Assembly: GCF_002157835.1 (NCBI RefSeq)
Contig: NZ_CP020809.1
Location: 5,332,001-5,396,000 of the forward strand
Length of the DNA: 64,000 nt
Direction: 5' to 3'
Source: Mycobacterium dioxanotrophicus
Lineage (GTDB): Bacteria > Actinomycetota > Actinomycetes > Mycobacteriales > Mycobacteriaceae
Shown in pieces: positions 8,988 through 19,160 of this stretch. The number at the start of each line of letters is the position of its first letter. Within the stretch, counting starts at the first letter, position 1. Under the pieces are notes generated by a model. It worked only from the letters and a program-made list of their open reading frames with translations. It was not told the origin of the DNA and made no database searches. The translations under genes were made by a program, and so were the position numbers.

Positions 8988-9539
8988 CTATCCGGCGCGG
9001 TCGTCGGCGTTCGCGGCGCGCATCAGGTCGTCGCGTGCGCGCGCCACCCGCGACCGGATCGTGCCGACCGGGCAGCCACACACCTCGGCGGCCTCGGCGT
9101 AGGACATCCCGATCACCTGCGTCAGGATCAGCGCTTCGCGGCGGTCGGCATCCAGGTCTGCCAGCAGCATCCGGATCTCGACCATGTTCTCGATGCGCGC
9201 GCCACGTCCGCCGGCCCCGGTGACGTCGTCGAGATCGATCACGTGCACGGTGCGCGGCCGGCTCGTGTTGTACCGAATCTGATCCACCACCACCCGCCGG
9301 GCGATCGACAGCAGCCACGTGCGGGCGCTGGACCGGCCGCTGAATCTCGGCAGCGAGCGGATGGCCCGCAGGAACGTCTCCTGGGTCAGATCGTCGGCGC
9401 TGCCGGGGTCCGCGAGGTAGGCCACCGTGCGCCAGACGTCCCGCTGGGTGGCCTCGATGAACTGGGACAGTGCGGCCTGGTCGCCGCGGCCCGCGGATTT
9501 GGCGAGGTGGGTAATTTGGTCGTCGTCACCTGTCGCCAC
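8988..9539 (-). CDS. sigC: ECF RNA polymerase sigma factor, SigC type
   Basis: 183 aa extracytoplasmic-function sigma factor. Sigma2 (residues about 25-95) carries [50 protein letters not shown]. Sigma4 (about 125-175) carries [31 protein letters not shown]. These match M. tuberculosis SigC closely from memory (QxDVWRx[21 protein letters not shown]). No anti-sigma gene is directly adjacent; the nearest candidate is at 18432-19124. The gene is divergent from ctpB across 131 bp. In M. tuberculosis SigC has been linked to copper acquisition, which fits the surrounding copper genes here. The GTG start at 9539 has a -10-like hexamer 8 nt upstream, suggesting leaderless translation. Confidence 0.88.
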
Positions 9540-9547
9540 GGCTAGTC

Positions 9548-9553
9548 ACCCTA
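9548..9553 (-). promoter_or_regulatory. Putative -10 element for leaderless sigC mRNA
   Basis: TAGGGT on the minus strand ends exactly 8 nt before the sigC GTG, the geometry expected of a SigA-type leaderless promoter. No GGGAAC-type -35 is present on this strand, so sigC itself does not appear to be autoregulated by the island motif. Confidence 0.45.
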
Positions 9554-9565
9554 GGCCATCGCGCC

Positions 9566-9595
9566 CGGGAACTTTTCGCCGCGTTGCACCGACCA
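9566..9595 (+). promoter_or_regulatory. ECF-type promoter for ctpB (island motif, copy 1)
   Basis: A -35 GGGAACT (9567-9573) and a -10-like CCGACCA (9589-9595) are separated by 15 nt. The same two boxes with the same spacing occur at 14592-14621 (plus), 12535-12563 (minus) and 19132-19160 (minus). The predicted transcript starts near 9602 and has a leader of about 70 nt with an AAGGAGGT ribosome-binding site at 9653-9660. Confidence 0.65.
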
Positions 9596-9670
9596 GTAGG
9601 CGCATGGGCAGAGTCCGGCGGCCCAGGTTTCTCGGAGTCGGCTCGGGGGTTCAAGGAGGTAACGGACACG

Positions 9671-11902
9671 ATGTCGAGCTCGGCACCGGTATGCGACGAC
9701 GTGGTCGGCGTGCAGCGGATCCAACTGGATGTCAGCGGGATGTCCTGCGCCGCGTGCGCCAACCGCGTGGAAAAAGCGCTCAACAAGCTGCCCGGTGTGC
9801 GGGCCTCGGTGAACTTCGCCACCCGGGTCGCAACCATCGACGCCGATGAGCAGACCGGCCCGCAGGAGCTGTGCGCGGTTGTGCAACGGACGGGATATGA
9901 AGCCGAACCCCGCAAGGCCGGCGTCGACGATGGCGGGGATCCCGACGCCGATCACGCGCACAGTCTGCTGATCCGGTTGGCCGTGGCGGCGGTGTTGTTC
10001 GTGCCGCTGGCCGATCTCTCGGTGATGTTCGCCGTGGTGCCCAGCACGCGCTTCGCCGGCTGGACGTGGGTGCTCACCGCGCTGGCGCTGCCCGTGGTGA
10101 CGTGGGCGGCGTGGCCGTTCCACCGCGTCGCGCTGCGCAACGCGCGTCATCGCAGCGCCTCGATGGAGACGCTCATCTCCGTCGGCATCACCGCAGCCAC
10201 CGTCTGGTCGCTCTACACCCTGTTCGGCACCCACCACACCACCGACCGCCGAGGCATCTGGCAGGCGCTGCTGGGCAGTGACGCCATCTACTTCGAGGTC
10301 GCCGCCGGGGTGACGGTGTTCGTGCTGGCCGGGCGGTATTTCGAGGCGCGGGCCAAATCGAAGGCGGGCGGAGCGCTGCGCGCGCTGGCCGCGTTGTCGG
10401 CCAAGGACGTCACCGTGCTGCTCGCCGACGGTTCGGAGATGCTGATCCCGGCCGACGAGCTCAAGGAGCAGCAGCGGTTCGTAGTGCGCCCGGGGCAGAC
10501 CATCGCCGCCGACGGGCTGGTGATCGAGGGTTCTGCCGCGGTCGACATGAGCGCGATGACCGGTGAGGCCAGGCCGGTGCGGGCCGACGCCGGCTCGAAC
10601 GTCATCGGCGGCACGGTGGTGCTCGACGGTCGACTGATCGTGGAGGCCGCCGCGGTGGGCGCCGACACCCGCTTCGCCGGGATGGTCCGGCTCGTCGAGG
10701 ACGCCCAGACGCAGAAGGCCAACGCGCAACGCCTCGCCGACCGGGTCGCGTCGGTGTTCGTGCCCGCGGTGTTCGTGCTCGCCACGCTGACCGCAGTCGC
10801 GTGGCTGCTCGCCGGCGGCGGGCCCGACCGTGCGTTCTCGGCGGCGCTGGCGGTGCTGGTCATCGCGTGCCCGTGCGCGCTGGGTCTGGCGACGCCGACG
10901 GCGATGATGGTGGCGTCCGGTCGCGGCGCCCAACTGGGCATCTTCCTCAAGGGCCACCAGTCGCTGGAGGCCACCCGGGCGGTGGACACCGTCGTCTTCG
11001 ACAAGACGGGAACCCTGACGACGGGACGGCTCAGCGTCAACACGGTCGTCGCGGTGTCGGGGTGGCGGCCCGAGGACGTGCTCGCGCTGGCCGCGGCCGT
11101 GGAGTCGGCATCCGAACACGCCGTGGGGCTGGCCATCGCCACCGCCGGCGGCCGCGGCGAACCGGTGGACGACTTCCGGGCGGTCGCGGGCCGCGGCGTG
11201 AGCGGTACTGTGACCGGCCGGGCCGTGCGGGTGGGCAAACCGTCCTGGATCGCCCCGCAGTGTGATTCGCCGACCCTCACCGCGGGCCGCCGCAACGCCG
11301 AATCACGCGGTGACACCGTGGTGTACGTCGAGGTCGACGGTGAGGCGTGCGGGGTCATCGCGGTGTCCGACGCCGTCAAGGACTCGGCCGCCGACGCTGT
11401 CGCCGCGCTGCACCGACGGGGCCTGCGCACGGTGTTGCTCACCGGGGACAACCCGGCGTCGGCCGCCGCGGTCGCCGACCGCGTCGGCATCGACGAGGTG
11501 ATCGCCGACGTGCTGCCCGAAGGCAAGGTCGACGTCATCGAGCAACTGCGCGACCGCGGCCGCGTCGTGGCGATGGTCGGCGACGGCATCAACGACGGGC
11601 CCGCCCTGGCCTGCGCCGATCTCGGCATGGCCATCGGCCGCGGCACCGACGTGGCGATCGGCGCGGCCGACATCATCCTGGTCCGTGACAATCTCGACGT
11701 CGTCCCGCTGGCGCTGGATCTGGCCGCGTCCACCATGCGCACCATCAGGGTCAACATGGTGTGGGCGTTCGGCTACAACGTGGCGGCCATCCCCATCGCC
11801 GCGGCCGGGCTGCTCAACCCGCTGATCGCCGGGGCGGCGATGGCGTTCTCGTCGTTCTTCGTGGTGTCGAACAGCTTGCGGTTGCGCAACTTCGGTCGAT
11901 AG
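9671..11902 (+). CDS. ctpB: Copper-type P1B ATPase, CtpB-like
   Basis: 743 aa cation-transporting P-type ATPase of the Cu(I) subgroup. The N-terminal heavy-metal-associated domain has GMSCAAC. It is followed by membrane helices, the actuator motif MTGEA, the transmembrane metal site CPCALG, the phosphorylation motif DKTGTLT, the nucleotide-domain SEHA motif (Ala in place of the usual Pro), [10 protein letters not shown], and the last-helix motifs [12 protein letters not shown] and [16 protein letters not shown]. The closest remembered relative is M. tuberculosis CtpB (Rv0103c). The ATG at 9671 has a strong ribosome-binding site (AAGGAGGT); an upstream in-frame TTG at 9584 is rejected. It probably supplies copper to exported enzymes rather than detoxifying. 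Confidence 0.9.
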
Positions 11903-11972
11903 TCACTCCACGGCACGGCTCCTATGCCGTGCATCGACTAGCAATCGGCCACTCCCGCCGCGAGCGTGCATT

Positions 11973-12004
11973 CTCTGCGAAAAATCGGCCGCGCAATCGC
12001 AGAG
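11973..12004. terminator. Inverted repeat between convergent ctpB and membrane gene
   Basis: CTCTGCGA (11973-11980) pairs with TCGCAGAG (11997-12004) across a 16-nt loop. It lies between two convergent genes, 71 nt after the ctpB stop. No T-run follows, so it is only a possible terminator. Confidence 0.35.
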
Positions 12005-12033
12005 GATTCACACACGCGATAGCGCTTGGCCCC

Positions 12034-12489
12034 TTACCGACCGCCAGTGCGCATGTCCGGCTGGGATTGTTCGATGGGCGTGAAGACGAGCGCCAACCAG
12101 TGGCCCGCCAATGCCATGACGGCCAGGTCGGCAGCGACAAGCCATCCCAGCCCGGTGGCGTGGTGTCCGGTGCGCAGCCACCACAGTGCGCCGACGCCGA
12201 CGACGGTGGCCAACCCGCTCAAATACGCCGCGGCGCAGCACCAGCGGTAGCGTCGCCGAGCCAGCGCCACCGAGGATGCGGCACCTGCGAGTGCGAACAT
12301 CACCAGGCCGACCATGGGAACGCTGTGCGCCGCACCGCTTTCCGCGACACACCACCACGTCACCGCGCCGACCACGAGCACCAGCACAGCCAGGACACCG
12401 GCGGCAAACCGCCACCGCCCCATCCACACCTCGTCGAGCACACGGCCTTCGATCGTCCGCAGGGTGTCCATGAATGCGTCGCCCGCCAC
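12034..12489 (-). CDS. Small four-helix membrane protein, unknown function
   Basis: 151 aa. Four hydrophobic helices are visible (about residues 22-43, 56-76, 84-106 and 113-135) with short loops and several Trp, Cys and His residues (WWCVA, YRWCCAAAY, GHHATG). I do not recognise a family. The GTG start at 12489 is chosen because an AAGGAGGA ribosome-binding site precedes it; the open frame continues upstream to 12579 without support. An island-type ECF promoter lies 46-74 nt upstream, in the gap behind the CopD/CtaG gene, so it is likely co-regulated with ctpB. The His and Cys residues allow, but do not prove, a copper-related role. Confidence 0.7.
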   Translation of the reverse strand: MAGDAFMDTLRTIEGRVLDEVWMGRWRFAAGVLAVLVLVVGAVTWWCVAESGAAHSVPMVGLVMFALAGAASSVALARRRYRWCCAAAYLSGLATVVGVGALWWLRTGHHATGLGWLVAADLAVMALAGHWLALVFTPIEQSQPDMRTGGR

Positions 12490-12534
12490 TGCTGATCCTC
12501 CTTCCCCCTCAGCCGATTTCGTCGTCCGCATATC

Positions 12535-12563
12535 TGGTCGCACCGAAGCCGCCTGTGGTTCCC
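12535..12563 (-). promoter_or_regulatory. ECF-type promoter for the 151-aa membrane gene (island motif, copy 2)
   Basis: On the minus strand GGGAACC (12563-12557), 15 nt, then GCGACCA (12541-12535). It is wholly within the 86-nt gap between the CopD/CtaG gene and the downstream membrane gene, so it gives the latter its own promoter. The boxes and spacing match the ctpB and PepSY sites. Confidence 0.6.
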
Positions 12564-12575
12564 GGGCCCTAGATG

Positions 12576-14516
12576 TCAACGCCGATCGCGGGACAGCTCA
12601 CGCAGCATCGCGTTGTAGGCGTCCAATTCGTCGTCGGCGTACGAGGAGTCGGCGTGGCGATCGGAGCGGGACGCGGCGCGGCGGTCCTGGCGGGCCCACT
12701 GTGCCACCAAGGCGACGACCACGATGATGACAGGCAGTTCGCTTGAGCCCCAGGCGATCGCGCCGCCGAGATGCTGGTCGTCCTCGATGCTGGCCAACCA
12801 CGGCAGGCCCACGTTGCGGTAGAACGGTCCACCCATCACCGAGGTCATGGTCATGGTCGCGATGCCGAAGAAGGCGTGGAACGGCATCGCCGCGAACAAC
12901 AGTCCCAGCCGGCCCAGGAACGGCAGCTTGCGCGGCCCCGGGTCGATGCCGATGATGCCCCAGTAGAAGAGATAACCGACCAGCAGGAAGTGCAGGCTCA
13001 TCAGCTCGTGGCCCCAGTGATACCGGGCCAGGGTGTTGAAGATCGGCGTGAAGTACACGACGTACAGCGACGCGACGAACAGGATGAACGCGATCATCGG
13101 ATTCGCCAGGAACGCCGTGACTTTCGAATGCACCAGCCACAGCAGCCATTCGCGGGGGCCGGGTGGCCGACTGTCACCGGCGGCGGGAAGTGCCCGCAGC
13201 GCCAGCGTCACCGGACCGCCGAGGACGAGCAGCACGGGGATGAACATGTTCAGGATCATGTGTTCGGCCATGTGCACGCTGAACATCGCCGACCCGTAGG
13301 CCCGCACCCCCGAACCGGTGGTGAAGACCAGCAGGGCACATCCGGCCAGCCACGCCACGAGCCGTCCGGCCGGCCAGCTGTCGCCGCGCCGGCGCAGCCG
13401 CAGGTATCCGGCGAGGTACAGCCCGGCCAGGACGATGGCACCCACGCCGATGAACGTGTCGAACCGCCACGCGGTCAGCAGCGTCAGCACGCTCGGCGGT
13501 TCGGGCAGTTCGTAGCCGAGAAACACGTCCCAGGCGGTGAACCGGTGCGCCAGCAGGCGCGGCGCTGGTTGGGTGGCCATCGCGGCCACCAGGGCCATCA
13601 TCCCGATCAGGGCGACCGCGTCGATCATGTCCTTCGCGCGCGTCAGGTCACGACGCCACACGGTGATGGCGTCACCCAGCCAGACCGCGAGCAGGAGCAC
13701 ACCGGCGCCCAGCCCGGCCCGGCCGTAGCCGGTGTCGGTCGGTAGCGCCGATCCGGCGAGCAGGACCAGCAGGATCGCGCCGTAGCCGAGTGCGACGGCG
13801 CCGGTGAGCGTTTCGAGCAGCAGCACCCGGCGCGCCAGTTCGGGAGCGGGCGGGCCGACGAGCGCTGCCAGCTTGAAGCCGACCAGCGCAGCGAGCGCGA
13901 CGACGAAGACGATCGCGGTGCTCGTCGCGTAGTCGTGGTCGGGTCCCTGGCCGGCGTTGCCGTTGACCGCGACGGACACCACCGCCACGACGGCGGGCAC
14001 CAGCAGCACCACGTGGGTGATCCACTTGACCGACAATCGTGCGGCGATCGCCACGAGAGCTGCCGCAGCGGCCACCACGATCCATGCCCGTGAGGTCTCC
14101 GATGCGGCGACCGCGGGAATCACGGCGCCGCTCAACATCAGTCGTAGGGCGTCGGCACCGGCGGCGCTGGCGGCCGACACCGCGATCATGAGCAGCGCCG
14201 TCACCGCCCAGAGCGCCGCGGCACGCTCGACGAGCACGTGCACCCGGAACGTTCCTTCATCGATCACGCCGGTGGTGTCGGGCCGGGCGGTGGTGACGAC
14301 GTAGAGCAGGCCGCCCAGGCAGGCGGCGCCGCACAGCGTGGCGATGAACTGTCCGACCGGCAGCGCCGCCGCGGTCAGCGCCCCGGGATAGGAGTCGCCG
14401 GTGGCCGCGTAGACGCCTGCGCGTCCGGTCAGGCCGTAGGCGGCCAGGCCGGCCAGCGCGGCCACGATCGCCGCCGCGGCGCTGTTCGCCCGCGGGCGCT
14501 TCTGGCTTGATTGCAC
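12576..14516 (-). CDS. CopD/CtaG-type copper membrane protein (Rv0102-like)
   Basis: 646 aa polytopic membrane protein with about 14-15 hydrophobic helices. The N-terminal half resembles the CopD copper-transport domain. The C-terminal half resembles caa3-type CtaG cytochrome oxidase assembly proteins, with membrane-embedded histidines in [49 protein letters not shown] and [11 protein letters not shown]. The M. tuberculosis counterpart is Rv0102, immediately next to ctpB (Rv0103c), so this pairing is ancient. It probably moves copper across the membrane for cuproenzyme assembly. The GTG start at 14516 is the only good one. The 113-bp gap to the divergent PepSY gene contains an 8-bp inverted repeat. 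Confidence 0.85.
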
Positions 14517-14558
14517 CGGGGTGACGCCCTCCGTCGGAGACAGGTATTCGCCGACGAG

Positions 14559-14579
14559 TCTACGACCGCCCGTCGTAGA
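14559..14579. promoter_or_regulatory. Perfect 8-bp inverted repeat in the CopD-CtaG/PepSY divergent promoter
   Basis: TCTACGAC (14559-14566), 5-nt spacer CGCCC, GTCGTAGA (14572-14579). It lies between the divergent starts at 14516 and 14630 and just upstream of the island -35 box. The dyad looks like a repressor operator; similar TACGAC/GTCGTA dyads are associated with BlaI/CopY-type repressors, but the assignment is inference. Confidence 0.5.
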
Positions 14580-14591
14580 GATTGACGGCCG

Positions 14592-14621
14592 CGGGAACTA
14601 TCGGCCCACCCTGACCGACCA
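14592..14621 (+). promoter_or_regulatory. ECF-type promoter for the PepSY operon (island motif, copy 3)
   Basis: GGGAACT (14593-14599), 15 nt, CCGACCA (14615-14621). The boxes are identical to those before ctpB. The GTG start codon follows 8 nt after the -10 box, so transcription would begin at or next to the start codon (leaderless). Confidence 0.65.
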
Positions 14622-14629
14622 ATGCACAC

Positions 14630-16069
14630 GTGAGCCACACTCCGCTGGAAGATCCCGTCGACCGCGACGGGCCCGTTGCGCCGAACTCGAATCCGGCGCC
14701 CGCCTCGGCATGGGCCAGATTCCGCCCGGTCCTGGTGCGCCTGCATTTCTACGCCGGGCTGTTCGTCGCGCCCTTCATTCTGATCGCGGCGTTCACCGGC
14801 CTGCTGTACGCGCTGATCCCACAGATCGACACGTTCGTGAACCGGCACGAACTGACCGTCGAACACGTCGGCGATCGCCGGCTCCCGTTGTCCGATCAGA
14901 TCGCCGCCGTGCGCCTGGCACACCCCGAAGGCACGGTGGCCAGCATCCGGCCGCCGGCCGCGGCCGACGAGACGACGTGGGTCACGCTCAACGTCGCCGA
15001 CGTGCCGCCCGATTACGCCCGAACGGTGTTCGTCGACCCCTACACCGGCGAGATTCGCGGCGCGTTGACGACGTATGGGCAATGGTTGCCGCTGCGGGCC
15101 TGGTTCGACGAGCTGCATCGCAACCTTCATCTCGGGGCGGTCGGGCGCAATTACAGTGAGCTCGCGGCCAGCTGGCTGTGGGTGATCGCCGCTGCCGGTC
15201 TGCTGCTGTGGATCGGGCATCGGCTCGGCACCGGGAAACTGCGCCGGATCGCCTCCCCCGACACCGGTGTGACCGGCCGCCGCAGACTGCTGTCTTGGCA
15301 TGGCGCACTGGGCGTCTGGATCATCGCCGCCCTGGCACTGTTGTCGGTGTCGGGCATGACGTGGTCGCGTTTCGCGGGGGCGAACGTGAGCGAGATCCGC
15401 TCGCACGTGACCTGGTCGACGCCATCGGTGGACACCACGCTGCCCGGTGGCGAACCGGGCACGGTCGTCGCGCATCACGGAACGCCAACAGCTGCAGCCG
15501 GATTCGACGACTCGCAGGCGTTACGCGGTGCTGACACGGCCTTGCGCGCCGCACACGATGCGGCGCTGAGCAATCCGATCTGGATGTATCCGCCGGCGGC
15601 GGCGACCCAGGGCTGGCAGGTTGCCGAGAACAAGCGGGACTGGCCGACGCGCTACGACGCCATCGCCGTCGACCCGCAGACTGGGGCGGTGACCGCCCGC
15701 GTCGATTTCGCCGACTGGCCGTTCATGGCCAAGCTGGCCGACTGGATCGTCGGGGCCCACATGGGAATCCTGTTCGGCATCGTCAACCAGGTACTGCTGG
15801 CCGCGGTGGCCATCGCGCTGATCGTGGCCATCGTCCTCGGATACCGCATGTGGTGGCGCCGCAGACCAACTCGTGCGCCGGGGGTGGCGCTGCCCACCGG
15901 TCCGCGCCGCGGCGTGCTGGCGGGGCTACGGCCTCATGAGGCGGTGCTGGTAACCCTCGCGCTGGCCGGTTTCGGTTACTTCGCACCACTGTTCGGGGTG
16001 TCCCTGGTGGCCTTCGTCGCCGTCGACGCCGCGCTGGGCCGGCGGCAGGCCCGGAAGGTGCGGCAGTGA
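14630..16069 (+). CDS. PepSY-associated transmembrane protein
   Basis: 479 aa PepSY-TM (PiuB-like) membrane protein. The characteristic helices are visible: RLHFYAGLFVAPFILIAAFTGLLYAL, ELHRNLHLG...SWLWVIAAAGLLLW, SWHGALGVWIIAALALLSVSGMTWS, and a C-terminal pair ending before RRRQARKVRQ. The periplasmic loops carry PepSY folds (VFVDPYTGEIRG and AIAVDPQTGAVTARVDF). Histidines at the helix ends are typical of members that bind haem or metals or act in metal reduction. It overlaps the next gene by 4 nt, and its promoter is the island ECF motif, which places it in the same regulon as ctpB. Confidence 0.85.
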   Translation: MSHTPLEDPVDRDGPVAPNSNPAPASAWARFRPVLVRLHFYAGLFVAPFILIAAFTGLLYALIPQIDTFVNRHELTVEHVGDRRLPLSDQIAAVRLAHPEGTVASIRPPAAADETTWVTLNVADVPPDYARTVFVDPYTGEIRGALTTYGQWLPLRAWFDELHRNLHLGAVGRNYSELAASWLWVIAAAGLLLWIGHRLGTGKLRRIASPDTGVTGRRRLLSWHGALGVWIIAALALLSVSGMTWSRFAGANVSEIRSHVTWSTPSVDTTLPGGEPGTVVAHHGTPTAAAGFDDSQALRGADTALRAAHDAALSNPIWMYPPAAATQGWQVAENKRDWPTRYDAIAVDPQTGAVTARVDFADWPFMAKLADWIVGAHMGILFGIVNQVLLAAVAIALIVAIVLGYRMWWRRRPTRAPGVALPTGPRRGVLAGLRPHEAVLVTLALAGFGYFAPLFGVSLVAFVAVDAALGRRQARKVRQ

Positions 16070-16692
16070 TCGGGGATTTGTTCCTGCGCTGGATCGTCAC
16101 GGCGTTGTTCGTCGTCAGCGCGCTGGAATGCGGGTATGCCATCGTCACGGGCCACCGGGCCTGGACACATGTGGTGGGGCATCTGCTGCACTTCGTCATG
16201 GCGGTGGCCATGGCGGTGATGGCGTGGCCGCGCGGCGCGGCGCTGCCGACCACGGGCCCGATGGTGTTCTTCGCCGCGGCCACGGTGTGGTTCGTGGCGA
16301 TCACGGTCGCGACGGCAAGGCACCGCGCCGTCGCCGGGTATCACGCGTTCATGATGCTGGCGATGGCATGGATGTACGCCGTGATGAACGGCAGACTGCT
16401 GCCGGGTCAGCCGATGTCGGGGCATCACGACGCCCCGGCGTCGGCGATGGCGATGGACATGCCCGGCATGGACATGTCCGCCGCCGCCGGGGCGTCGTCG
16501 GGCCCGGGTTATCCCGGCTGGATCGACGCCGTCGACTGGCTGTGCACTGTGGTGTTCGCGGCCGCTGCCGTGTGGTGGCTGTACCGGTATTTCGCTGCGC
16601 GCCAGGCTGATCCGGCTCATCCTCAGTTCGGTACCGCGTGCCAGGCCATGATGGCCGCTGGGATGGCGGTGATGTTCGGGGTGATGCTGTAA
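16066..16692 (+). CDS. DUF5134 membrane protein with Met/His-rich loop
   Basis: 208 aa with about six hydrophobic helices. Between helices 4 and 5 there is an exposed loop with the composition of a copper-binding peptide: MSGHHDAPASAMAMDMPGMDM (residues about 117-137, six Met and two His). The membrane parts add further Met and His (HLLHFVMAVAMAVMAW, GYHAFMMLAMAWMYAVM). It matches the actinobacterial DUF5134 family by overall layout. The GTG overlaps the PepSY stop by 4 nt, so both are translated from one transcript. Copper binding is inferred from residue content and context. Confidence 0.8.
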   Translation: MIGDLFLRWIVTALFVVSALECGYAIVTGHRAWTHVVGHLLHFVMAVAMAVMAWPRGAALPTTGPMVFFAAATVWFVAITVATARHRAVAGYHAFMMLAMAWMYAVMNGRLLPGQPMSGHHDAPASAMAMDMPGMDMSAAAGASSGPGYPGWIDAVDWLCTVVFAAAAVWWLYRYFAARQADPAHPQFGTACQAMMAAGMAVMFGVML

Positions 16693-17730
16693 CTAGGGCT
16701 GGTAGCGCCAGAGGCGCCAGTCGCCGGTCAGCGGATCCCAGTCGAGCACCTTGCCGTCGTGCATGACGATGAGCTGCTGGGGCACCTGGATGCTGAACCA
16801 GTTGCCGATGTCCACCGGCGAGCCGGGCAGCACGTCGTGCACGCTGGCGGCGTCGTAATTCCACAACCGCCACGTCCCGTCGCCGGGCACCCAGTCGAGC
16901 ACCTTGCCGTCGTGCATCGGCACGAGGGTGTGCCCCGAGACGATCGTCTTCCACGTGCCGCTGGCCACCGGATTGCCGGGCAGCACATCGTGGACGTGGG
17001 TGGCGTCGTAGTGCCACAGCCGCCACGTGCCGTCAGCGGGCTTCCAATCCAGCACCTTGCCGTCATGCATCGGGATCAACTGATGACCGGAGCGGATCGT
17101 CTGCCACTGCCCGCTCGCCACCGGGTTACCCGGCAGCACGTCATGCGTGCTCGTCGCGTCGTAATTCCACAGCCGCCACGTCCCGTCAGCGGGCTTCCAA
17201 TCCAGCACCTTGCCGTCATGCATCGGGATCAACTGATGACCGGAGCGGATCGTCTGCCACTGCCCGCTCGCCACCGGGTTACCCGGCAGCACGTCATGCG
17301 TGCTCGTCGCGTCGTAATTCCACAGCCGCCACGTCCCGTCGCCGGGCACCCAGTCCAGCACCTTGCCGTCATGCATCGGGATCAACTGGTGTGTGAGCAG
17401 GATCGTCTTCCAGCGGCCTTGTGCCACTGCGGGTCCGGGCAGGATGTCGTCGCGGTACCACAGCTGCACCTCGCCGTGGGTCGGCGAGTTGTCGACGATG
17501 ACGGTGTGCTGGCCGCAGTCCGTGATCTTGTCGACGGGACTCCAACTCAGCGGGGCCGCCGAGCCGTCGCTGTCGGTGATGGCGATCGCCCGCATCCGGG
17601 TGTCGGTCGAGCTCGGGTAGTCCGAAGCCCGGGTGATCGAGTAGCACTCGAGCGTCTGCACGCAGTCCAGCAGCTCGTCGGTGGTGAGGATGGTCAGCTT
17701 GCTCTGCCGGCGATCCCGACGAACTCGCAT
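16693..17730 (-). CDS. 3' part of a frameshifted repeat protein (five 51-aa repeats)
   Basis: 345 aa open frame that is probably not a separate gene. Its first residues (about 1-10) are an out-of-frame reading of the upstream ORF. From QSKLTILTTDELLDCVQTLECY on it continues the domain begun at 18296, ending in a segment DKITDCGQHTVIVDNSPTHGEVQLWY. Then come five copies of a 51-aa repeat with core LIPMHDGKVLDW-GTWRLWNYDA-HDVLPG-PVASG-W. The repeats resemble short beta-propeller/tectonin-like blades. Units two and three are nearly identical in DNA, indicating recent duplication. Function unknown; a carbohydrate-binding or surface role is a guess. Confidence 0.6.
   Translation of the reverse strand: MRVRRDRRQSKLTILTTDELLDCVQTLECYSITRASDYPSSTDTRMRAIAITDSDGSAAPLSWSPVDKITDCGQHTVIVDNSPTHGEVQLWYRDDILPGPAVAQGRWKTILLTHQLIPMHDGKVLDWVPGDGTWRLWNYDATSTHDVLPGNPVASGQWQTIRSGHQLIPMHDGKVLDWKPADGTWRLWNYDATSTHDVLPGNPVASGQWQTIRSGHQLIPMHDGKVLDWKPADGTWRLWHYDATHVHDVLPGNPVASGTWKTIVSGHTLVPMHDGKVLDWVPGDGTWRLWNYDAASVHDVLPGSPVDIGNWFSIQVPQQLIVMHDGKVLDWDPLTGDWRLWRYQP
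16729..17400. repeat. Tandem 153-bp coding repeats (five units)
   Basis: Five tandem units of about 153 bp encode the 51-aa blade. The units around 17060-17212 and 17213-17365 are almost identical base for base, whereas the terminal units have diverged, so the array is expanding or being homogenised in the middle. Confidence 0.8.
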
Positions 17731-18296
17731 GTCCAGACCGCGCCCAGCGGTAGGCCGCTGGTGCCGGTGACCCGCGTCATCCGGCCGACCAGGGTGTCAC
17801 CGACCTGGACTGTTACCGGCGCGGTGTAGGAGGCCGCGCCGTCCTGGCCGTCGGCATACCAGCTCGCGACGCACCAGTGGTCACCGCCGAAGATGCCGTT
17901 GTCGCCCCACTGCAGGACGGGCTGCAGGATCATCGAGCTGTTCTGCAGGCCGTTGAACAGGTACAGCAGCTGCCCGTTCTGCGTCTGCGGCGCACCGGGC
18001 ACCACCCATGTCGTGAGGAACGACTTCAGCGGTGTGCCGCTCTGAAAGTTGGCGAAAGTGATCCAGCCCGTTCCGAAGTCGGGCAGCTGCTCGGGTGGTT
18101 GCATGACGTTCGCGGGCATCAGCGGTACCCCCGGCTCGTGCGGCGGCACCGGCCCGACATCGCGGAGCATCTCCCCCGCCCGGGTGACATGGCGCATCCT
18201 GCCGTCGGCGACGTGGACCACCGAGTCCGGCGCGACTTGGTGCACGACGTCCGCGGCGCGCCGGCCACCCGGTGTGATGACAAATTTTTTCGACAT
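17694..18296 (-). CDS. 5' part of a frameshifted repeat protein
   Basis: 200 aa from an ATG at 18296 (MSKKFVITPGG) with a GGAGG ribosome-binding site 6 nt upstream. The body (PDFGTGWITFANFQSGTPLKSFLTTWVVPGAPQTQNGQLLYLFNGLQNSSMILQPVLQWG...VASWYADG...VGDTLVGRMTRVTG...GAVWTCEFVGIAG) resembles an actinobacterial/fungal beta-sandwich domain. That domain normally continues with a segment like LTILTTDELLDCVQTLECY. Here the frame stops after GRAS, and the expected continuation is found in the overlapping -1 frame. A single missing base near 17705-17715 would explain this. There is no signal peptide. Confidence 0.65.
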   Translation of the reverse strand: MSKKFVITPGGRRAADVVHQVAPDSVVHVADGRMRHVTRAGEMLRDVGPVPPHEPGVPLMPANVMQPPEQLPDFGTGWITFANFQSGTPLKSFLTTWVVPGAPQTQNGQLLYLFNGLQNSSMILQPVLQWGDNGIFGGDHWCVASWYADGQDGAASYTAPVTVQVGDTLVGRMTRVTGTSGLPLGAVWTCEFVGIAGRAS

Positions 18297-18431
18297 GACG
18301 CCCTCCGAGCCGTCGTTGTCGAGCAGGTGATTGAGCCGAGTCCCTGTGCCCGGACCCGTCGACACCGATCAGTCTTGGCCTGCGGGCACACCGCAGTCCC
18401 GCGTAGTCCGCTACTCGAAATTCACCGAGTT

Positions 18432-19124
18432 TTAGGCAGCGCCGTCGGTCGGCCACAGATGGCCACGCCGACGGCCTCGGGAAGCGTTGTCCGGCAAGGT
18501 GATATCCGCTTCGGCCGCATGCCGTCCGGGTTCCGGTCCTGATGTCGACGCATCCCGCCAGACCAGAACCGCGAGGACCGCACCGAGCAACACGGGTAGA
18601 TGCGTGACCATCCGCACCGGCGTGACCGCGCCCATCGTCGCGTCGACGGCGACGTACACCGTCAGCACCGCGGCGAACACGCTCAACACTCCTGCCAGGC
18701 CGGCGGCCGCGACGGGCCGCAGCGCCGCGCCGATCATCACCGCGCCGAGCGCGACCGACCACGCCGTCGACTCGTTGAGCAGGTGCCCGCCGCCCATGCC
18801 GTGGTCGTGGACCAGCCCGACGCTCAGCCCGAGGCCCTGGACGGCCGCGAGCAGGATCTGCACCACGCCGACCGCGAGCAGCGCCCCGCGCCGCCAGCCC
18901 AGCCACGCTCGCCGGGGATGCTCGACGGAGTGTTCGAGCGCGGTGAGCGTGGGCCGGCGTTCGGCCAGGCGGCGCAGGTCGAGCGTCTGATCGGTGACGG
19001 CGTCGCGCCAGGCGCGGCAGTCGGCGCACTCGCGCAGGTGCTCGTCGACGCGCGCCGACGGCACGGGCTCACGCTCACCGTCCAGCCGGGCCGACAGCGC
19101 CTCGCGCGCCACCTCGCAGTTCAC
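18432..19124 (-). CDS. Zinc-binding anti-sigma-like membrane protein (Rv0093c-like)
   Basis: 230 aa. The N-terminal cytoplasmic part is a zf-HC2 domain: MNCEVAREALSARLDGE, then HLRECADC, the H-x3-C-x2-C signature of zinc anti-sigma (ZAS) proteins. It is followed by four hydrophobic helices (about residues 69-95, 105-125, 130-152 and 165-185). The second extracytoplasmic stretch includes VHDHGMGGGH, rich in His. The closest remembered relative is M. tuberculosis Rv0093c, which lies near ctpA/ctpB. The GTG at 19124 is chosen over a much longer upstream frame because the zf-HC2 domain begins there and an island promoter sits 8-36 nt upstream. It is a candidate regulator of the SigC-type factor at 8988. 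Confidence 0.8.
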   Translation of the reverse strand: MNCEVAREALSARLDGEREPVPSARVDEHLRECADCRAWRDAVTDQTLDLRRLAERRPTLTALEHSVEHPRRAWLGWRRGALLAVGVVQILLAAVQGLGLSVGLVHDHGMGGGHLLNESTAWSVALGAVMIGAALRPVAAAGLAGVLSVFAAVLTVYVAVDATMGAVTPVRMVTHLPVLLGAVLAVLVWRDASTSGPEPGRHAAEADITLPDNASRGRRRGHLWPTDGAA

Positions 19125-19131
19125 CCCCCTA

Positions 19132-19160
19132 TAGTCGCGCAGCGGCGCCTGATTGTTCCC
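19132..19160 (-). promoter_or_regulatory. ECF-type promoter for the anti-sigma-like gene (island motif, copy 4)
   Basis: On the minus strand GGGAACA (19160-19154), 15 nt, GCGACTA (19138-19132). The GTG of the anti-sigma-like gene follows 7 nt later, implying a leaderless mRNA. The spacing is the same as in the other three sites. Confidence 0.6.

Follow-up and report, generated by a model that had tools for sequence, protein, structure and literature searches.

Introduction

Extracytoplasmic function (ECF) sigma factors of the SigC type have been described in Corynebacterium glutamicum and in Mycobacterium tuberculosis. Here we analyze a sigC gene of Mycobacterium dioxanotrophicus together with four probable promoter sites in its neighbourhood. 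All are contained in a stretch of 64,000 nucleotides (nt) of contig NZ_CP020809.1 (positions 5,332,001 to 5,396,000), which we call the window; positions given without a contig or locus name are counted from its first letter. For C. glutamicum the sigma-C consensus is reported as GGGAACT in the -35 region and CGACTA in the -10 region (Toyoda and Inui 2016, via PMC5483222 and PMC7337898); the introduction of PMC5483222 instead prints GGAAAC and CGACT. One target, the membrane-protein gene cg2556, has a promoter which is sigma-C-dependent in vitro and in vivo and is reported to be sigma-C-specific (PMC5483222). According to the same two sources its product is annotated as an iron-regulated membrane protein, cydABCD is activated by sigma-C, and the regulon is linked to copper deprivation and failure of the aa3 oxidase (PMC5483222, PMC7337898).

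SigC of M. tuberculosis is needed for growth in copper-starved medium. It induces ppe1-nrp as well as ctpB, the latter of which it also transcribes in vitro; near-identical SigC boxes have been predicted ahead of ctpB and ppe1-nrp (PMC7924339, PMC9147137). An older, different set of SigC genes was not recovered in two later studies, as stated in PMC7924339. The same paper of 2021 describes sigC as monocistronic and not autoregulated, with no anti-sigma factor known at the time, and lists as open questions the sensing of copper deficiency in M. tuberculosis and the means by which SigC is kept inactive (PMC7924339).

Two further systems are pertinent. PMC8999054 describes fusions of ECF36 sigma factors with a membrane anti-sigma part, i.e., proteins with an N-terminal transmembrane extension. 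In Mycobacterium chubuense NBB4 a SigC-like gene is located on a plasmid beside the hmoCAB-type genes of the hmo/smo cluster; according to a review, no role has been proven for this gene, and metal availability is among the possible reasons for having both enzymes (PMC8784404).

SigC and Four Probable Promoter Sites

The pattern GGGAAC-N16-SCGACYA, with 17 nt between GGGAAC and CGACYA, occurs exactly four times in the window without mismatch, compared with 0.02 expected occurrences (100 dinucleotide shuffles, the largest count being 1). All four sites are intergenic. They precede ctpB (9567..9595, plus strand), the gene of a membrane protein of 151 amino acids (aa; 12535..12563, minus strand), the PepSY-DUF5134 operon (14593..14621, plus strand) and a zf-HC2 gene (19132..19160, minus strand). 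The -10 box reads CGACCA in the first three and CGACTA in the last. Thus, the positions, strands and uniform spacing described in an earlier, sequence-only reading of this DNA are borne out.

The gene sigC (8988..9539, minus strand) codes for an ECF sigma factor of 183 aa. Pfam recognizes Sigma70_r2 (residues 28-92) and r4_2 (residues 121-171), with no match to a region 3 model. The NCBIfam SigC equivalog NF007231 is matched with 238 bits at a cut-off of 219. The closest relatives in the PDB are two chains named sigma-C factor, which we take to be those of M. tuberculosis. A genome search with this protein yields 18 matches: SigC itself, a copy on the 106-kb contig C4 (about 70-72% identity; 238.1 bits against NF007231), and 16 others of 28-37% identity. 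At E<=1e-5 the sole match inside the window is sigC, in agreement with the view that it is the only sigma factor there.

The boxes in the window equal the C. glutamicum sigma-C consensus. The T following GGGAAC is present in 2/4 sites, and the T of CGACTA in 1/4 (CGACCA in 3/4). This removes the doubt about the -10 box which the sequence-only reading had voiced, since both boxes are those published for sigma-C. As in M. tuberculosis, a SigC-type sigma factor is found with ctpB as a probable target. The SigC model, the corynebacterial consensus and the mycobacterial ctpB promoter all support the assignment, and we consider the four sites to be, with a probability of about 0.9, promoters read by the SigC (ECF36-type) sigma factor encoded next to them. 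Beyond what is known from M. tuberculosis, the sites in the window would also serve the PepSY-DUF5134, 151-aa and zf-HC2 genes, all within 10 kb of sigC. We presume that cg2556 of C. glutamicum is of the PepSY type as well. A difference concerns the oxidase genes: C. glutamicum sigma-C acts on cydABCD, whereas here the exact sites are at copper-transport-type genes and cydA has a BlaI-type dyad instead, see below.

The distance from the -10 box to the start codon is 75 nt for ctpB (ATG at 9671) and 45 nt for the 151-aa gene (GTG at 12489); in both an AAGGAGG is positioned ahead of the start codon, ending 11 nt and 7 nt upstream, respectively. It shrinks to 8 nt for the PepSY gene (GTG at 14630) and to 7 nt for the zf-HC2 gene (GTG at 19124). 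Two leaderless mRNAs had been predicted from these short gaps. For the zf-HC2 gene the prediction stands, as the 7 nt are kept in 12/12 loci of relatives which have a near site. For the PepSY gene the distance from box to extrapolated start ranges between -25 and 61 nt among 20 sites in relatives; thus either leaderlessness is not conserved there or the start codons are uncertain. Ahead of sigC itself we find no SigC site at <=3 mismatches (9531-9740, minus strand, spacings 15-19) and no exact one in 78 relatives, which argues against autoregulation by this route.

Spacing and Targets Are Conserved at sigC Loci

The whole genome (8.08 Mb) contains six exact sites, four in the window and two on contig C4, the latter both at most 12 kb away from the gene of the one other close relative of SigC in this genome. 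When the S is dropped and the boxes are moved 1 or 2 nt closer (only shorter spacings were tried), 5 and 3 matches appear, all on the chromosome outside the window. The scan which the sequence-only reading had suggested thus gives two clusters. A genome-wide count of the 12-letter motif as proof of a regulon was dropped because over 118 genomes of the genus it equals that of a reversed control pattern. In these GC-rich genomes the motif does not by itself suffice to define a regulon; therefore spacing and position were tested instead.

For this purpose the best 80 of 118 stretches with a SigC relative were used, with at most 10 kb on either side of the gene and 1.41 Mb in total. In these sigC loci GGGAAC and CGACYA occur 133 times at a spacing of 17. 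At spacings of 12-16 and 18-22 the same boxes occur 0, 4, 2, 0, 2 and 2, 2, 0, 0, 0 times. At least one exact site is present in 60/80 loci. What carries the signal is not the number of motifs per genome; it is how the sites cluster at sigC loci, keep one spacing and retain the same targets.

When the genes of the window were used as tblastn queries, 86 of the 133 sites were found ahead of ctpB (28), DUF5134 (21), pepSY (20), zf-HC2 (14) and the 151-aa gene (3); 47 were matched to no window gene. The start of an open reading frame of the PPE type (by a motif test) follows 22/133 sites, and this applies to 16 of the 19 sites in the slow-grower loci (L083-L113); Pfam PPE was found in both of the two such frames scanned. 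These PPE-type genes fit with ppe1-nrp, which has been published as a SigC target in M. tuberculosis. In the M. dioxanotrophicus genome no exact site exists outside the two clusters, and no search for an nrp operon was made there. Other proteins downstream of sites, one scanned each, contain TauD, DUF4395, HMA or a BlaI-type domain (Penicillinase_R); one further protein had no match.

A gene-centred count leads to the same picture. We asked for an exact site between -180 and +12 and left out genes with an unmatched 5' end or too close to the end of a locus. Such a site is present ahead of 26/45 ctpB orthologues (37/45 when one mismatch is allowed), 13/18 pepSY, 20/32 DUF5134 and 3/5 orthologues of the 151-aa gene (mem151). 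Ahead of control genes none is found: Rv0102-like 0/13, sigC 0/78, tmk 0/4, mtrA 0/6.

Weighing the Assignment

Several observations weigh against the assignment to SigC. The reversed pattern has 5 matches in the same genome, and across the 118 genomes the motif occurs 462 times compared with 478 for the reversed control, i.e., its 12 fixed letters are not enriched. The counts at sigC loci are not independent because they come from related loci, the 80 best out of 118. No exact site is found in 20/80 loci, among them L083, L094 and L101, in which the PPE side is 3-4 mismatches off, and the ENV421 locus L082. Two or more mismatches are present ahead of 8/45 ctpB orthologues. Lastly, only 12/67 zf-HC2 genes are preceded by an exact site, 12/36 in loci L034-L082 and 0/31 in the slow growers (L083-L113). 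The genus-wide parity with the control would suit the notion that the four matches arose by chance in a GC-rich genome. The low expectation for the window, the preference for a single spacing in relatives (133 compared with 0-4) and the retention ahead of the same genes, with absence ahead of control genes, reduce this notion to a negligible probability.

The 16 more distant sigma genes of the genome leave room for another ECF sigma factor, e.g., one of the SigH or SigE type with GGAA in the -35 box, with SigC as a bystander, and the sigma-H -35 box indeed shares GGAA (PMC5483222). The sigma-H -10 box, however, is of a GTT type and not CGAC, and the C. glutamicum promoter that was tested was specific for sigma-C according to the same report (PMC5483222). 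Moreover, the six exact sites of the genome all fall into the two clusters with close SigC relatives, and we regard a foreign sigma factor as very improbable. A different question is whether both SigC proteins of the organism read both sets of sites such that chromosome and C4 form one regulon. Boxes and spacing are the same at both places and the two proteins are closely similar; on the other hand, relatives commonly combine sigC, ctpB and sites, so the chromosomal set would need no gene from C4. A single joint regulon appears doubtful to us. The description of a compact regulon in one island must be amended: the four sites and sigC do lie together, but a second SigC-type gene is accompanied by two exact sites and a one-mismatch site on C4. 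SigC of the chromosome remains our preferred reader of the four sites in the window.

The zf-HC2 Protein as Candidate Anti-SigC Factor

The gene at 18432..19124 (minus strand) codes for a zf-HC2 membrane protein of 230 aa (Pfam zf-HC2 37.2 bits, cut-off 22.2). Its site would make it a member of the SigC regulon and it is predicted to be translated from a leaderless mRNA. In 28 of the 31 slow-grower loci (L083-L113) the zf-HC2 protein and SigC are fused in frame; in the remaining three the genes are adjacent. The 28 linkers of the fusions are all distinct, have eight different lengths and contain no in-frame stop. The other two frames contain 47 and 31 stops, a contrast which is overstated because the linker contains a palindrome whose own letters create a TAG in another frame. 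The absence of in-frame stops and the in-frame changes of length stand regardless. A Cys together with an HxxxCxxC, as expected of zinc-finger (ZAS) membrane anti-sigma factors, is present in 69/69 collected zf-HC2 copies, a search of PDB profiles with the zf-HC2 protein matches RsiW, and a structure comparison of its model (VIA-align) yields an alignment with the MucA domain, albeit in a list of mostly four-helix bundles, which are common.

These findings lead us to favour, with some reserve, the view that the zf-HC2 protein is an anti-SigC factor which exerts negative feedback on SigC. The alternative is another SigC-driven membrane protein, engaged in copper handling or partner of a different sigma factor. 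Curated anti-sigma models are matched only below their cut-offs (NF052368 with 18.9 of 50 bits, TIGR03988 with 17.4 of 62.5 bits), Foldseek with the whole model returned no match at E<=0.001, and a structure model of the fused zf-HC2/SigC protein was unusable (predicted local distance difference test, pLDDT, 50; predicted template modelling score, pTM, 0.31). In the membrane part H114 and H175 are invariant in 39/39 rows, which would suit a metal-binding protein equally well. In addition, the SigC part of the slow-grower fusions keeps its own Met (invariant in 28/28 rows), and the palindrome, exact or with one end base changed, is located in the linker or gap between zf-HC2 and sigC. A separate start and a palindromic operator in the linker imply that SigC may also be made on its own in slow growers. 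Such points keep the alternative alive; in view of the fusions and adjacencies, the conserved Cys and HxxxCxxC and the likeness to RsiW and MucA we deem it unlikely and retain the anti-SigC role as the better proposal.

The fused slow-grower proteins resemble the ECF36 proteins with an N-terminal transmembrane extension. The window differs from these in that both genes are separate, 9 kb apart, and that the anti-sigma-like gene has a SigC-type promoter of its own. For the fused ECF36 proteins PMC8999054 names DUF2275; here the proteins scanned with Pfam were the free-standing ones, and they matched zf-HC2.

A Second SigC Module on Contig C4

Contig C4 (47001-67000, locus L007) presents a comparable module next to monooxygenase genes. 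The order is a GAF regulator, sigC, an exact site, two lipoprotein- or cupredoxin-like genes, a membrane gene, zf-HC2, amoC, amoA, amoB and a second zf-HC2 gene, with a PepSY gene on the opposite strand. The lipoprotein- or cupredoxin-like and membrane genes were read by eye and have no Pfam match. The PepSY gene has a one-mismatch site that faces a further exact site. Directly ahead of amoC no SigC-type site is detectable at <=2 mismatches; hence, control of the monooxygenase by SigC would need read-through or another promoter. The second lipoprotein-like gene, behind an exact site (L007:17344-18200), looks decayed, as its 32% similarity to the first copy outruns the short reading frame. Elsewhere on the contig a gene similar to di-iron monooxygenase alpha subunits (C4:13469-14953) is 43% identical to smoX of NBB4; in the 4.5 kb examined it has no SigC-type site at one mismatch.

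The closest described arrangement is the plasmid of M. chubuense NBB4. The NBB4 cluster adds smoXYB1C1Z and has one zf-HC2 gene; on C4 there are two, together with a PepSY gene. On the NBB4 plasmid an exact site follows sigC and a one-mismatch site precedes a lipoprotein-like gene. A further pair of perfect boxes, with a spacing of 16, is situated 369 nt ahead of smoX (L143:9552-9579), between the cluster of the sigma factor gene and the genes of the soluble di-iron monooxygenase. We have set aside the interpretation of these boxes as a copper-switch site because it rests on one site with a spacing of 16 that two Rhodococcus plasmids have not retained. Up to 900 nt from smoX, L205 shows a single one-mismatch site (spacing 15) and L206 has none at <=2 mismatches. 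Similarly, a general pairing of SigC with copper membrane monooxygenases (CuMMO) was abandoned, since a SigC-like gene is present at only 3/8 actinobacterial CuMMO loci in the stretch examined.

A Probable BlaI Operator in the Island

Between the Rv0102-like and PepSY genes resides a palindrome, CTACGAC-N5-GTCGTAG (14560..14578), 14 nt ahead of the -35 box of the PepSY promoter and 43 nt ahead of the Rv0102-like start. No other exact copy exists in the genome. In the 80 sigC loci it occurs 53 times, exclusively at spacing 5 of 16 tested; six scrambled half-sites, taken over all spacings, gave 0, 3, 0, 0, 0 and 0. In 59 genomes 33 copies were counted in 30 genomes compared with 23 for the reversed pattern. 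Among 30 loci of the genus, with three second copies left out, 11 palindromes precede sigC, 15 the Rv0102-like gene and 4 are elsewhere.

Two one-mismatch copies exist in the genome, one 31 nt before cydA and the other inside a gene. Ahead of a BlaI-type gene, which is followed by the gene of a BlaR1-type peptidase, a related dyad is present. Published work counts sigC and cytochrome bd genes among the targets of BlaI in M. tuberculosis (PMC8265638, PMC5473688). Most likely, the palindrome is a BlaI operator, an assignment made from the target genes. A new copper operator, an idea we had entertained, was dropped in favour of BlaI because of the dyads at cydA and at the blaI-blaR-type pair and because of the published BlaI targets.

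At one locus of the genus, L185, the palindrome is flanked by genes resembling those of a beta-lactamase and of cobK (assigned by eye), and no sigC was matched there. In M. tuberculosis sigC is located between blaC and cobK; it may have been lost at L185.

Other Genes of the Island

The ctpB-like gene (9671..11902, plus strand) codes for an HMA-containing P-type ATPase, a probable copper importer (Pfam HMA and E1-E2_ATPase, scanned as 9584-11902); the name ctpB is assumed by us and was also taken over from the sequence-only reading. The 151-aa membrane protein (12034..12489, minus strand) has no Pfam match and reaches 29.4 bits with the NCBIfam Rv2732c-family model, below the cut-off of 60. 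The adjacent gene (12576..14516, minus strand) codes for a membrane protein with a CtaG domain (Pfam Caa3_CtaG) and lacks a SigC site of its own; that it is Rv0102-like is our presumption. The PepSY_TM membrane protein (14630..16069, plus strand; Pfam PepSY_TM 227 bits) and the DUF5134 membrane protein (16066..16692, plus strand; Pfam DUF5134) are encoded with an overlap of 4 nt. Also inside the island, at 16693-17730, a protein of 345 aa with repeats around MHDGKVLDW is encoded without an exact SigC site.

Discussion

Many anti-sigma factors of ECF sigma factors form negative feedback loops with their sigma factors. We propose that SigC switches on a copper-starvation programme via the four promoters, with copper limitation as the presumed signal. 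The programme would comprise ctpB for the import of copper into the cytoplasm, the PepSY-DUF5134 pair of membrane proteins, the 151-aa membrane protein and the zf-HC2 membrane protein. The cytoplasmic N-terminal domain of the latter would bind SigC and thereby close a negative feedback loop. Further, and tentatively, the zf-HC2 protein might be a copper sensor as well as an anti-SigC factor, considering its predicted four-helix fold, the invariant His residues in the membrane and its provision either by leaderless SigC-driven feedback or as a fusion; the same switch may have been recruited on C4 and in NBB4 to tie copper supply to a copper monooxygenase. If this were true, the smoX site of NBB4 would make a copper switch between two alkane oxidases, a soluble di-iron enzyme and a copper membrane enzyme.

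The promoter class as such is already known; what deserves attention is the anti-SigC candidate and the module on C4. For the mycobacterial SigC class the data support one set of promoter letters, and at sigC loci they provide a strict spacing rule for SigC sites. The zf-HC2 gene, SigC-controlled according to its promoter, is a candidate for the anti-sigma factor, with relatives which are fused to SigC, and this makes the question of what keeps SigC inactive testable by the deletion of one gene. Beyond that, the module on C4 suggests a way in which mycobacteria that oxidise alkanes might adjust their monooxygenases to the supply of copper.

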